The position numbers and the translations under genes are program-made. Under the pieces are notes generated by a model that worked only from the letters and a program-made list of their open reading frames with translations, searched no databases and was not told where the DNA came from. A stretch of DNA of 64,000 bases from Sodalis sp. CWE. GTDB lineage: Bacteria > Pseudomonadota > Gammaproteobacteria > Enterobacterales > Enterobacteriaceae. The number at the start of each line of letters is the position of its first letter. Within the stretch, counting starts at the first letter, position 1. Shown here piece by piece: positions 38,151-59,923 of this stretch. Location: NCBI RefSeq assembly GCF_019646055.1, contig NZ_JAESFE010000001.1, positions 62,001 through 126,000 on the forward strand, given 5' to 3'.

Positions 38151-38282
38151 TTCTTGCTTTTAATAAAGAAACTAATTAACAAAAAATTTTAGCTGTTTTT
38201 TTAGTGCATCCTCTTAAAATCTTTTGATTCTTTTTCGTTTTTTCCGTCGGCATTCATTTAGAATATAGAGTAGAGGTATACA

Positions 38283-38639
38283 ATGGCTCGTATTGCTGGT
38301 ATTAACGTTCCGGATAATAAACATGTTTTGATTGCTTTAACATCAATTTACGGAATTGGAAAAGCTCGTTCGAAATACATTTGTACAACTTCAGATATTA
38401 ACGAACATATTAAGATCAGTAAACTGTCCGAAGAACAGATTGATACTATACGTGCAGCAGTTTCCAAATTTGTTGTAGAAGGTGATCTTCGTCGTGAGGT
38501 AACTTTAAATATTAAACGTTTAATTGATCTTGGAACCTATCGTGGTTTGCGTCATCGCCGTAATCTTCCAGTTCGTGGTCAACGTACTAAGACTAATGCT
38601 CGTACACGTAAAGGTCCTCGAAAATTAATCAAAAAATAA
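38283..38639 (+). CDS. rpsM: 30S ribosomal protein S13 (uS13)
   Basis: Head protein making bridges to the 50S and contacting P-site tRNA with its C-terminal tail. 118 residues as in E. coli. [20 protein letters not shown] and [20 protein letters not shown] are conserved. First gene of the alpha operon; the 132-bp leader is where E. coli S4 binds a pseudoknot, which I could not verify. Confidence 0.98.
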
Positions 38640-50205: not shown

Positions 50206-50955
50206 TTCTTATTATGCTATAAGCATATAAAAAGTATCATCAGATAAATAAATTAAAATAAATAACTAATTGTATCATTGAGTAATATATAGTGAATTCT
50301 TTATCAAAAAAAAAGATCCTATTAAAGATAGGCGAATATTTATACGTTTATAAAAACTACACCTATAATTATCAAGCAATTAATGGATTTAAATTTCTAT
50401 TAAGAGAATTTTTCATTGGAATAGACAAAAAGCCAAAAAGCAATAGTTATTAAGCTGTAAAATTCTTATGGTATAAGAAAATTATTTAAAACAATATAAT
50501 TTTCTTATAAAAGACATGAAATATGAAAACAAATAAGCGCTCCTTTCTAATTAAGATTTTAAATAGATTAATGCAATCTCTAATATTCATTTTCAATTGG
50601 AATAAACCTGATAATAGATTTTAGGTTCGTATTTTTTGATCTAAGGAAGGTAGAAATAAAAAATTATTTTTTTGTTAAAAATATCTCTTAGTATATTACT
50701 TTTAATTCTAAAAAATAGAACAACCATATTTATTCATCCTTTTAATAAACAAAAAGACTATTTAGAAAATAAAGTCAATATATTTATCTTTCTAATTGAA
50801 AAACATGAACTACATTTTTATTAAAATGGTACAGAAAACAACAGCAGATCTTTTTATAGATCTGAAAAACTTTATTTTAGTTAATTTTTGCTTTCTGCTT
50901 GATAAGACATTACCCATAATTTTTATAAAAATTCTCATCTTAAAAAGAGGCTATA
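50206..50955. other. Gene-free interval, site of missing ftsYEX
   Basis: 750 bp without a credible gene between rsmD and rpoH. E. coli has ftsY, ftsE and ftsX here. A small hairpin CCTAT-TAAAG-ATAGG lies near 50316-50331. The rpoH promoters should lie at the right end, but none stands out. Confidence 0.55.
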
Positions 50956-53231: not shown

Positions 53232-54332
53232 TTATTTCCTTATGCGAAAGTGATTACAAATCCTTTTTACAAAAAACGAATTATCTAGTAAATTCAAAAA
53301 TAATGCCAAAAACAAATATGCTATATTTGTAATCCACGACCAAAGTTTAGGATCAAGCTTTCCCATAATGCTATTAGCACGCAACGATGTTTGCAAAAGA
53401 AAGAAAAATAAGTATAAAAGCATTGCAAAAAATAGGCTAAAAAATTGTTTTCGGCGCGAATTTACCATCGAAAATGGAATTGCAATTATTGCCATGATAG
53501 GTATTGAAACTATTAGTGTAAATCTCCAATGCAATTCTGCGCGTTTTTTAGATTCTTTAGAATTCCATAACTGTAATAAAGTTAATTGGTTAATATTTTG
53601 TTTAAAAAGCAAAGTTTTTTTTTGTTGATGAATAACAATTTTAGTTTGATCAAAGTCAGTAATGCGAAAAATAAGAAATGGGTTTTTTTTTTCATAAAAA
53701 GTGCCTTGTTTTAGAACAAAAACTTGTGATCCATCTGATCTATAATTTAGATATCCGTGATCGGCTATTACTATAAAAGGATATGTATCTTCTATTTTTC
53801 TAAGTTGTGCCAGAAATATATGATTAAAATTATTATTTGTGATTTGTTCAATAAACAGAACAGAATTTCCGTTCTGCATTGATTTAAATCGGCCTTCCAT
53901 TATTGCTGATACACCAATATCAGCCTTTGATTCTGACATAACTATATCTTGATATTGACACGACCAAGGAGAGATCCACATTACGTTGATTCCTTCCAAG
54001 ACTATTGTGATTAAACTAAGTAGGAGTGCTGAACGTAGCAGTTCAATTTTACTAAAACCGCAAGCATACATAGCGATAATTTCATTTTTGGCATACATAT
54101 AACTTAACGTTATTAAAAGACTTAGGAAAAGGCTCAATGGAAAAATAAGTTGCGCCATCTCAGGCATACCTAAAATGAGCAAAGGAACAATCAGATTCTT
54201 TGATACAATACCATCAGCTGTTGCATCAAGTACCCTAACCAATTTTTGACAAAAGAAAATAAAAAATAAAATAAATAAGATAGTAACCTGGTTTTTGAGC
54301 GTTTCATAAATAAGATATCTAATAATAATCAC
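53232..54332 (-). CDS. lptF: LPS export permease LptF
   Basis: Partner of LptG in the LPS transporter. 366 residues, equal to E. coli. It has N-terminal membrane segments (IIRYLIYETLKNQV), a periplasmic domain, and C-terminal segments with LHWRFTLIVSIPIMAIIAIPFS. The coding strand contains a run of ten A (complement of T53683-53692) at FYEKKNPF, a likely slippage site, though the frame is intact. In E. coli pepA-holC-valS runs in the opposite direction from here; only valS remains. Confidence 0.95.
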   Translation of the reverse strand: MIIIRYLIYETLKNQVTILFILFFIFFCQKLVRVLDATADGIVSKNLIVPLLILGMPEMAQLIFPLSLFLSLLITLSYMYAKNEIIAMYACGFSKIELLRSALLLSLITIVLEGINVMWISPWSCQYQDIVMSESKADIGVSAIMEGRFKSMQNGNSVLFIEQITNNNFNHIFLAQLRKIEDTYPFIVIADHGYLNYRSDGSQVFVLKQGTFYEKKNPFLIFRITDFDQTKIVIHQQKKTLLFKQNINQLTLLQLWNSKESKKRAELHWRFTLIVSIPIMAIIAIPFSMVNSRRKQFFSLFFAMLLYLFFFLLQTSLRANSIMGKLDPKLWSWITNIAYLFLALFLNLLDNSFFVKRICNHFRIRK

Positions 54333-54774
54333 AACTATTCGTCTATAAGGCCTTTTTAATAGAGAAAAAGCAGTAGTACCATCTTATTTTATTATAAGCT
54401 AAAAAAACTTTTTCGTTTAAAAAATAAATGACAAATATCTTTTTAAAGGCTTTTATTACTTAATTTAGTAAAACTAGAAGCAATCATTTAATTATTGAAG
54501 AGATAGATAGGAGATTTTTGATTTACTAAAATATATTTATGCAAGACGTGGATATTTTATTATTTACATGAATGTATACTAATATTTCCATGCACAGATC
54601 ACCATAATTAAGACCGAAACATTAATTATTTCAAATTGACATACCAGACTATTAAAATTTTTTATAAAAAAGCAGAGAATCATTATAGTTATGATGATTC
54701 ATATGGAACTTTAGTTTAAAGAACAAGAGTAAAAAAATTTAGAGATTTTCTTTTTTTTTTGAAACTTTTAAAAA

Positions 54775-54797
54775 ATTTTCTCTAAAATAGAGAAAAT
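54775..54797 (-). terminator. Strong hairpin upstream of valS
   Basis: A 10-bp perfect stem with 3-base loop, ATTTTCTCTA-AAA-TAGAGAAAAT. On the minus strand it is followed by TTTTTAAAAG, as in a terminator, but no minus-strand gene ends here. It resembles the hairpin after rplQ. Confidence 0.45.
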
Positions 54798-54953
54798 AAA
54801 TATATCATTATTACAATTATCTTCTAAGAAGAAGGAAATAGAATCTGTTCTTTATTAGAATTGCTTATTTACAATAAATAAATTTTCTATTTAGTTGTAG
54901 AAGCAACTTAATTAAGTTAAGTAGTTACTCTTTGATGCTGATATTTTAGATAT

Positions 54954-54970
54954 TCTCTTCATTAAAGAGA
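54954..54970. terminator. Small hairpin upstream of valS
   Basis: TCTCTT-CATTA-AAGAGA, a 6-bp stem with the arm type seen at several other intergenic places. Followed by only three T on the plus strand. Confidence 0.3.
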
Positions 54971-55150
54971 TTTAAGTTCTAATTCAAACAGAGTGCAAAT
55001 CTAATTTTTTAATCATTCTTACTTTTTTAAATAAAATTTACTAGAAATAATGTCATTACGGATTGTAACATAATGTGCATAAATACTCAGATAAGTTTCA
55101 TTTCATGACAACGCTTACACAAACTAGGATAATTAGGCAGATTAATAATA

Positions 55151-58021
55151 ATGGATAAAACATATCATCCAAGAGATATTGAGCAATCACTTTACAACGA
55201 TTGGGAACAAAAAGGATATTTTAAACCTAATAACAATACCCAACAAAATAGCTATTGCATTATGATGCCTCCGCCTAACGTAACTGGAAATTTACATATG
55301 GGTCACGCTCTCCAGCATTCTATTATGGACGTCTTGATTCGTTATCAGCGCATGCAAGGAAAAAATACTCTCTGGCAAGTAGGTACAGATCATGCAGGCA
55401 TTGCAACACAAGTAATAGTGGAAAAAAAGATCGCTGCTGAAGAAGGAAAAACCCGTCACGACTATTGTCGTGACGGGTTTATTGAAAGAGTTTGGCAATG
55501 GAAATTTCAGTCTAGTAAAAAAATTTACTATCAAATGCGTCGTTTGGGTAATTCTGTAGATTGGGAAAGAGAACGATTTACATTAGATGAAGGATTTTCT
55601 AATACAGTTAAAGAAGCATTTGTTCGTCTATACCAAGATAATTTAATTTATCGAGGTAAACGCTTAGTAAATTGGGATCCTAAATTAGGTACCGCAATTT
55701 CAGATTTAGAAATAGAAAATCGTGAGTCAAAAGGAACTATGTGGTACTTTCGTTATCCACTTTCTGACTCAATAGTTACTCGTGATGGATTACCTTATAT
55801 TGTGGTTGCTACCACACGGCCAGAAAGTATACTTGGAGATACAGGTATTGCAGTACATCCAAAAGATCAACGTTATCAAAATCTAATAGGTCGATTTGTT
55901 TTTTTACCTTTAGTTAACCGTCGTATTCCTATCATTGGAGATCACTCTGTTGATGCAACTAAAGGAAGCGGATGTGTCAAAGTTACGCCAGCACACGATT
56001 TTAATGACTACGAAATTGCAAAAAGACATGTCTTGCCAATGATAAATATACTTACTTTTGAAGGTAGAATTCGACAACATGCAGAAATTTTCAATAGTAA
56101 AGGTGAAATTAGTAATATTCTCTCAAGAGAAATTCCAGATTTCCTGCAAGGATTAGAGCGTTTCGCCGCACGAGCGAAAATTATTTCTAAAATGAAGAGT
56201 CTTGGTTTACTTTCTGATGCTAAAAATCATAATCTTACAATTCCATACAGCGATCGTAGTAATGTAATAATTGAGCCAATGTTAACCGATCAATGGTATG
56301 TTCGGACTAAATCATTAGCAAAAGTAGCAATAAAAGCAGTAAAACAAGGAAAGATAAAATTTGTACCGAAGCAATACGAAAACATGTACTTTAGTTGGAT
56401 GTATAATATTCAGGACTGGTGTATTTCTCGTCAACTTTGGTGGGGACATCGTATACCAGCTTGGTATGATCCTATAGGAAAAATTTATGTTGGTCGTAAT
56501 GAGATTGAAGTACGTCAAAATTATCAATTGAAAGATGACATAGCCTTACGGCAAGATGAGGATGTTCTAGATACTTGGTTTTCTTCAAGTTTATGGAGTT
56601 TTTCTACTCTCGGTTGGCCAAAAGCAACCAATGAACTACGTATTTTCCATCCAACTAATGTATTGGTAAGTGGTTTTGATATTATTTTCTTTTGGATAGC
56701 ACGCATGATTATGTTAACAATGTATTTCATTAAAGACGAATGCGGTGATCCACAAGTGCCATTTAAAACTGTTTATTTAAGTGGATTAATTCGCGATGAG
56801 AAAGGAAAAAAAATGTCTAAATCTAAAGGAAATATTATTGATCCACTAGATATGATTGATGGTATTTCATTAGCTAACTTAGTTAAAAAACGTACTGATA
56901 GTATGATACAACCAAAATTAGCAGAAAAAATTCAAAAACAGACTTCAAAACAATTTCCTAATGGAATTAAAGCGTATGGAACTGATGCTTTACGCTTTAC
57001 GCTTATGGCATTAAATTCTACTGGTCGTGATATCAATTGGGATATGAAACGTTTGCAAGGTTATCGTAATTTTTGTAATAAATTATGGAACGCTAGTCGT
57101 TTCATATTAATGAATACTAAAGACCAGGATTGTGGATTTTACGGTGGTGAAAAAAAATTTTCACTAGCAGATCGCTGGATCTTAATTGAATTTAATCAAG
57201 TAGTAAAAAAGTTTCGCGAAGCATTAGATAACTTTCGATTTGATATAGCTGCTAATATTTTGTATGAATTTATTTGGAATAGATTTTGTAATTGGTATTT
57301 AGAGCTAACTAAATCAGTAATAAGCAATGAAGATAACAACAATAAAGCTGAACTGCGCGGAACACGATATACCATGATTACTCTGTTAGAAAAACTATTG
57401 CGTTTGTCACATCCAGTCATTCCCTTTATTACTGAAGAAATTTGGAAGCAAGTTAAAATTATTATTGGAAACAGAGGTGACACTATAATGTTACAACCTT
57501 TTCCATTGTATGATAAAACCTTAAAAAAGGATGTAAATGCTTTACTTGATTTAGAATGGATTAAACAAACGGTTTTTGCTGTACGTAGCGTACGTTCTGT
57601 TCTTGGTATTGCTCCTAATAAGCCGTTATCAATATTGCTACGTCAAGCATCCAAAGATGTAGTCCGTAGAGTACATGAAAACAAAAGGTTCATTTTAAAA
57701 TTAGCCAAACTCAATAGTATTTCATTATTATCACCGAATGATAACGAACCAATTTCTTTCATTAAAATTATCGACAACGCTGAACTTCTTGTTCCAACAA
57801 AAGACCTAATTTACGAAAAAAAAACCGAACTAAACTGTTTAATTAGAGAAACTGAGCGAATTGATGATAAAATTAATCATATTATTGCTAAACTTAACAA
57901 TAAAAATTTTATCAATTATGCTCCAGAGCAATTGGTATTAAAAGCTCAAAAAGAACTGATATCTTATAAAAAATCTAAAGAGGTGTTACTTAAACAATGG
58001 AAAAATATTACTAATGAATAA
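55151..58021 (+). CDS. valS: Valyl-tRNA synthetase
   Basis: Class I synthetase charging tRNA-Val. 956 residues (E. coli 951). The HIGH region is [21 protein letters not shown] is [11 protein letters not shown], and editing-domain sequence [11 protein letters not shown] is present; the C-terminal coiled-coil arm ends the protein. A 14-bp perfect inverted repeat with 4-base loop lies inside the gene at 55449-55480, encoding [12 protein letters not shown]. coli has KTRHDYGREAF there. It converges with trpS. Confidence 0.98.
55449..55480. repeat. 14-bp perfect inverted repeat inside valS
   Basis: AAACCCGTCACGAC (55449-55462), loop TATT, GTCGTGACGGGTTT (55467-55480). It is fully within the valS coding sequence, about codons 100-110, and much more GC-rich than its surroundings. 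It is the most stable hairpin noticed in the window. Confidence 0.85.
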
Positions 58022-59245: not shown

Positions 59246-59923
59246 TTAGTATCTACTCGTCTTTAAAAGAGCTTGGCGCATAGCGCCAATTGCAACACTG
59301 TAATCTGGTTGATTGAATATGGCTGAGCCTATAACAAAGACATTAGCTCCTGCTGAAGCGATGTCCCCGATATTACTTACTTTGATACCTCCATCCACCT
59401 CAAGCCAAATATCTCTTCCACTCCGATCTATCATTAAACGAGCTTGACGTACTTTTTCTAAAGTAAAAGAAAGAAAAGATTGCCCGCTGAAACCTGGATT
59501 AATCGACATCATCAAAACAAGATCAATCTTGCTCAAAACATATTCAAGGCAACTTAAAGAAGTAGCTGGATTAAAGGCTAATCCAGCTTTACAACCGCAA
59601 TTTCTAATCAACTGCAAGGATCGATCAACATGCTCCGATGCCTCAGGATGAAAAGTAATATAGTTAGCACCAGCAGCAGCAAAATCTGGAATTAAATCAT
59701 CGACTGGTTTTATCATTAAATGTACGTCAATATTAGAAGTAATTCCATACTTACGTAGTGACTTAAGTACCATGGGACCAACAGTTATATTTGGAACATA
59801 GTGGTTATCCATAACATCAAAATGTATTATATCCGCTCCAGCAGCAATCACTTGAGTAATATCTTCACCTAGTCTAGCAAAATCCGCAGAAAGAATAGAG
59901 GAAGAAATTAAATAATTTTTCAT
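59246..59923 (-). CDS. rpe: Ribulose-phosphate 3-epimerase
   Basis: Interconverts ribulose 5-phosphate and xylulose 5-phosphate in the pentose phosphate pathway. 225 residues, as in E. coli. [45 protein letters not shown] and EVDGGIK carry the TIM-barrel active-site residues. dam and damX, upstream in E. coli, are gone. Confidence 0.97.

Follow-up and report, generated by a model that had tools for sequence, protein, structure and literature searches.

What could place a perfect 14-bp inverted repeat inside the coding sequence of valS in a reduced, AT-biased genome (797 kb, two contigs) that, judging by its size, base composition, and relatives, is enterobacterial and symbiont-like? The repeat (55449-55480) lies in a 64,000-nucleotide stretch of Sodalis sp. 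CWE DNA, here called the window, and had been proposed to result from a quasi-palindrome mutation. With modest confidence, we take the same view, that the hairpin is a mutational footprint of quasi-palindrome correction by template switching. As such, it is a strong but ordinary case of a known footprint, and no new system is involved.

A perfect hairpin inside valS

The two arms are 100% complementary (14/14 pairs) and are separated by a loop of only four bases (Table 1). The original prediction was right about the repeat and about the residues encoded by its arms.

Table 1. Coordinates of the valS hairpin and its parts within the window
Feature	Positions	Strand	Description
valS	55151..58021	+	Intact frame of 956 aa encoding valine--tRNA ligase (NCBIfam TIGR00422 and NF004349, each above its cut-off)
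Left arm AAACCCGTCACGAC	55449..55462	+	Within codons 100-104 (KTRHD)
Loop TATT	55463..55466	+	Tyr105 codon and first base of Cys106 codon
Right arm GTCGTGACGGGTTT	55467..55480	+	Within codons 106-110 (CRDGF)
Codon GGG (Gly109)	55475..55477	+	Rarest glycine codon, 7.8% in sampled coding sequence

The claim of a stable mRNA hairpin also held in folding predictions. By itself, the hairpin has a predicted energy of -24.9 kcal/mol, and the 66-nt RNA around it reaches -30.8 kcal/mol (z = -7.2 versus 200 dinucleotide shuffles), compared with a mean of -12.9 and a minimum of -25.4 kcal/mol for the same segment in 1,000 synonymous shuffles of valS. These predicted energies would suit an RNA element under selection, one that slows translation, stabilizes the mRNA, or attenuates transcription in valS, and three distant relatives (L057, L106, and L078) fold the segment as stably via other pairings. 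Against such an element, none of the 168 relative loci listed has the perfect hairpin, and a search of Rfam at the gathering score matched nothing there. Furthermore, valS is essential and translated, and ribosomes would be expected to cover the stem, located ca. 300 nt into the gene. Selection has been proposed as the reason for excess structure in coding sequences (Katz and Burge, described in PMC4060949). The suggestion that the hairpin might slow or end transcription inside valS relied on a TTTATT following it. The TTT of that motif belongs to the stem, the true 3' sequence being ATTGAAAGAG; an intrinsic terminator on the valS (+) strand was rejected because there is no U-tract 3' of the stem, and the scan gives a terminator-like call on the opposite strand only. 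All in all, we consider an RNA element improbable; a function of this kind is unsupported, and nothing in our results shows that the valS hairpin has a function of its own.

Two other candidates were discarded. In a genome search with a 72-base query, the only matches were the site and its own palindromic counterpart; the sequence is thus single copy, and a dispersed repeat element was rejected. A tRNA was looked for at the hairpin site and none was found.

The surroundings offered several observations in their own right. Between 52000 and 60000 of the window, terminator-like stems numbered 12, versus 3.1 (standard deviation, 1.7) from shuffles, and several were inside genes. Inside rpe (TIGR01163), on the minus strand, 10 bp pair perfectly around a loop of 5 bases (59564-59588). 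No ORF of at least 80 aa was listed in the ca. 0.8 kb between lptF and valS (54333-55150), the stretch from 54301 to 55150 had no match at an E value of 0.01 to the ORFs of relatives' flanks, and pepA and holC, which occupy this place in E. coli, were not seen between lptF and valS. An Alpha_RBS leader (Rfam RF00140) scored above the gathering threshold at 38220-38315.

Pairing beyond synonymous codon choice

With the 11 residues at the site fixed and synonymous codons weighted by their usage in the sampled genes, the probability of 14/14 pairs was 5.7e-6. We also exchanged synonymous codons at random inside every gene of the sample (189,741 bp of coding sequence, about one-quarter of the genome). 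Over 5,604 such shuffles, stems of at least 14 bases with loops of 3 to 12 arose 105 times (0.019 per shuffle), and a stem of this length with at least 8 G/C arose once; these chance figures, and the probability above, are weakened by the fact that the hairpin was singled out by a scan of many sequences. The valS hairpin surpasses the expectation from synonymous codons. The codons ACC, CAC, GAC, and GGG make up 0.13, 0.21, 0.19, and 0.08 of the use of their synonyms, but GC3 at the site is only mildly raised (5 of 11 codons), a value reached by 62 of 947 windows along valS.

The window contains two perfect stems of 14, versus none in 20 first-order Markov simulations. The other one (50472-50509) has a loop of 10 and is nearly all A/T, with one G/C per arm.

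The homologous site in relatives

The site was placed in 173 loci, namely, five copies of this genome and 168 loci of relatives, all of them outside its genus. The relative loci listed came from four sources: 29 from a search of 60 genomes (30 loci listed, one of them from this genome), 80 listed out of 547 confirmed, 29 among the matches listed in a third search (384 of 392 genomes matched; 30 loci listed, again one from this genome), and 30 from a search of 33 genomes. Some genomes appear twice, and the set holds 156 distinct 36-base blocks.

Pairing at the homologous site ranged from 1 to 11 of the 14 positions and was never complete in the 168 loci, the best paired being L006 (11/14). This imperfect pairing indicates that the protein motif alone encodes a quasi-palindrome. 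Among the relatives, L153 and L145 had 9/14 pairs and L004 and L005 had 8/14; the predicted energies of their hairpins lie between -3.8 and -7.1 kcal/mol, far from the value obtained here. In a ValS tree of 60 sequences, L153 was the sister (local support, 0.92), while the shortest distances were to L004 and L005; this genome sits on a long branch (0.33 substitutions per site), and a long-branch effect may explain its grouping with L153.

We compared the two arms separately. The left 14-mer is present at the site in 6 of the 168 relative loci listed and the right one in none, the nearest being one base off (L083). This suggests, if weakly, that the right arm was the one rewritten, the weakness being that there are three differences from L153 in each arm; five of the six are toward G or C, against the preference of this genome for A and T.

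Residue changes at positions 106, 108, and 109

The original prediction held that three substitutions (G to C, E to D, and A to G) were exactly those making the right arm complementary to the left. Only the last of them stands. The base responsible for Gly106Cys (55466) is in the loop and adds no pair. Gly occupies residue 106 in 158 of the 173 loci, the five copies of this genome are alone in having Cys, and Ser, Thr, Asp, Arg, or Asn is found in 10 of the relative loci listed, which indicates that the position is relaxed in some relatives. The change of E to D exists only in comparison with E. coli-like sequences; Asp is the commonest residue at position 108 among the relative loci listed (84, versus 69 with Glu), and more so in the 88 loci left when the 80 listed out of 547 confirmed are set apart (64 versus 9). 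Asp108 is present in L153, L145, L004, and L005, whereas L144 has His, L148 has Asn, and L154 has Ala. Ala109-to-Gly (GGG) is thus the sole residue replacement, versus relatives with Ala, that runs through arm bases.

Position 109 is Ala in 112 of the 168 relative loci listed and another residue in 56. Gly109 accompanies an imperfect hairpin in four of them, L016 and L119 (one genome; 8/14 pairs), L110 (5/14), and L083 (with GGG; 9/14), which indicates that Gly109 is tolerated independently of the pairing. The search for relatives with CRDGF and noncomplementary codons, put forward with the original prediction as a sign of ordinary protein selection, could be run in part and yielded these four Gly109 loci and none with Cys106 among the 168.

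These data bear on selection at the protein level, by which Cys106 or Gly109 would have been favored for ValRS function, with the pairing as a by-product. The variation at residues 106 and 109 is compatible with that reading, but the residues do not dictate GGG, GAC, CAC, and ACC, the perfect stem retains its very low probability once they are given, and Cys106 contributes nothing to the pairing. We find it hardly probable at all.

A stronger alternative is that independent substitutions on the protein-encoded quasi-palindrome completed the pairing, with no templated event. Relatives come as close as 11/14, Asp108 and several codons required no change, Gly109 arises elsewhere next to imperfect hairpins, and the branch is long with differences from L153 in both arms. 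On the other hand, 0.019 stems of at least 14 are expected per ca. 190 kb of shuffled sequence, one with the same G/C arose a single time, and the probability at the site is as low as that calculated above, all subject to the effect of the many-sequence scan. Completion by independent substitutions is possible but, in our judgment, rather unlikely.

Template switching as the proposed origin

Quasi-palindrome correction remains the best explanation, given the excess over chance, the imperfect pairing of relatives, and the excess of such stems in coding sequences (see below), even though the argument from three substitutions fails for two of them. The starting point would be the conserved KTRHD and GR(D/E)AF motifs, separated by one residue, whose codons form a quasi-palindrome in many valS genes of Gammaproteobacteria. 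A DNA polymerase stalled in the hairpin may have briefly copied the opposite arm, and one arm, probably the right one, would have been rewritten as the exact reverse complement of the other. The rewriting would have brought GGG, and hence Ala109-to-Gly, into an AT-biased genome, and Gly106-to-Cys would be a separate loop change at the relaxed position. The hairpin may have been kept because the protein tolerates the changes; translating ribosomes would melt the stem. A single template switch could account for the perfect arm, the uncommon GGG, and a codon that differs by two bases. From sequence comparisons over a long branch and across genera, we tentatively infer that the origin was templated, in one event and not several, and that copying ran from left to right.

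The process itself is documented. Quasi-palindrome correction (Ripley 1982) includes, in E. coli, the thyA hotspot (Dutra and Lovett 2006), both as cited in PMC7202029. The valS case resembles it in that an imperfect repeat with a short loop has become perfect, with a multibase arm difference that contains transversions and with imperfect relatives, but here the change was deduced from distant relatives and not seen as a mutation. Template switches have also been recorded in the coding genes of S. cerevisiae (PMC8604942), RNA hairpins are described as products of template switches (PMC8794818), and a mutation review treats the process (PMC10710837). Perfect repeats within genes and clustered nonsynonymous changes in the arms are common to the yeast cases and to valS. 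In PMC8604942, the yeast events were polarized on the phylogeny, with long branches left out, unlike ours, and the loop change in valS is a single base with no spacer inversion, unlike those cases. Among the titles and abstract openings searched, nothing was found on quasi-palindrome or template-switch hairpins in insect endosymbionts or Buchnera, and the literature search found no paper on quasipalindromes together with exonucleases I and VII.

Perfect hairpins in coding frames across the family

We compared perfect stems (loops of 3 to 12) with synonymous shuffles across coding frames sampled from 43 genomes of the family, among which G063 contributed only 3,252 bp. With four groups of genomes summed, there were 50 stems of at least 11 bases versus ca. 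17.5 expected (two overlap in G112, and many are A/T) and 14 stems of at least 13 versus ca. 2.3 expected; given that ORFs were called mechanically (at least 100 aa, longest first), some of these hairpins may be in nongenes, as the one in G016 appears to be, or in terminators. The short-loop excess grows with arm length. Stems of 7 bases were 1.20× the expectation in 22 genomes of less than 1 Mb, 1.20× in 10 large genomes, and 1.36× in 10 of intermediate size. The controls, in pooled classes of relatives, gave 1.03 to 1.07× (mirror), 1.00 to 1.09× (parallel complement), and 0.97 to 1.08× (distant inverted repeats). Short perfect repeats are overrepresented in the coding sequence of prokaryotes according to PMC4060949 and to PMC6649704, which cites it, with template switching as the proposed cause; that pattern recurs in our 43 genomes, although the repeats reported there measured 6 to 9 bp and the valS stem measures 14.

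For this genome alone, near 7-mers were at 1.28×, far ones at 1.19×, the parallel complement at 1.21×, and the mirror at 1.01×, so its excess over all stems is modest and lacks clean specificity. Its G+C-rich 7-base stems numbered 20 versus 11.4 expected, while the G+C-rich controls gave 9 versus 8.6 (loops of 40 to 49), 11 versus 10.2 (mirror), and 18 versus 11.6 (parallel complement). Given the excess of perfect short-loop hairpins across the sampled frames of the family, the valS case alone is unsurprising.

Individual genomes provided further examples. G112 has 38 perfect short-loop stems of at least 8 bases versus 12.1 expected, one of them a 15-bp stem in a sensor-kinase-like frame (L192, 6767-6799). 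A perfect inverted repeat of 21 bp around a 4-base loop (L248, 15986-16031) was found in an Obg-like GTPase gene and is shared by two genomes of the same genus with zero to one mismatch. This stem is perfect in G254 and G382 and has 20/21 pairs in G322, and G154 aligned partly. In G062, a pdxH-like gene has a 12-bp stem; two genomes of its genus, G346 and G198, have imperfect versions, and G279 had no match. Both gene names were read from the translations and not from a family search, and the two parallel cases are unpolarized.

These parallels matter for the possibility that the valS hairpin is an artefact of sequencing, library preparation, or assembly, such as fold-back copying in vitro, which the representation of the genus by a single assembly would favor. 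The intact valS frame, the conserved flanking residues, and the presence of comparable coding-frame hairpins in other assemblies, including the Obg-like one common to three genomes, argue against it, and we regard an artefact as very improbable.

Nuclease loss and G+C-rich stems

Exonucleases I and VII have a role in E. coli regarding quasi-palindrome (template-switch) correction. No SbcC, exonuclease I, or XseA was detected in this genome. SbcC was looked for in this genome alone, and exonuclease I and XseA were used to group the 43 genomes, with G158, G254 (sub-threshold pieces only), and G173 (a fragment) counted as lacking the gene. The all-stem excess did not differ between the four genotype groups (1.19 to 1.29× at 7 bases). 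Distant repeats (loops of 40 to 49) were also in excess in the group without both exonucleases, from 1.17× at 7 bases to 2.20× at 12.

G+C-rich 7-base stems were at 2.08× in genomes with neither enzyme, 1.84× with exonuclease I only, 2.22× with XseA only, and 1.23× with both, and their controls in the four groups ranged from 0.55× to 1.44×, all within 2 standard deviations. The genomes with both nucleases are all large, and therefore nuclease loss is inseparable from genome reduction and base composition. We set it aside as the basis of the explanation, since the all-stem excess was alike and the G+C-rich difference is confounded with reduction. A broader reading is that, in reduced symbionts that lost the nucleases suppressing hairpins, template switching repeatedly rewrites G+C-rich hairpin arms in essential genes (valS here; the Obg-like and pdxH-like genes in relatives). 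The contrast of about 2× versus 1.23× fits it but is confounded in the same way, and we consider it doubtful.

Implications for protein evolution in the family

If repeated rewriting were true, neighboring DNA, and not selection, would set amino acid changes, and conserved motifs prone to form hairpins would offer proteins a systematic way to decay. That G+C-rich stems are more strongly in excess in reduced genomes is a lead. The valS hairpin is a clean G+C-rich case in an AT-rich genome, in which a protein sequence was probably altered by DNA copying its own neighbor. Such clusters of changes can pass for adaptive change or for regulatory hairpins.
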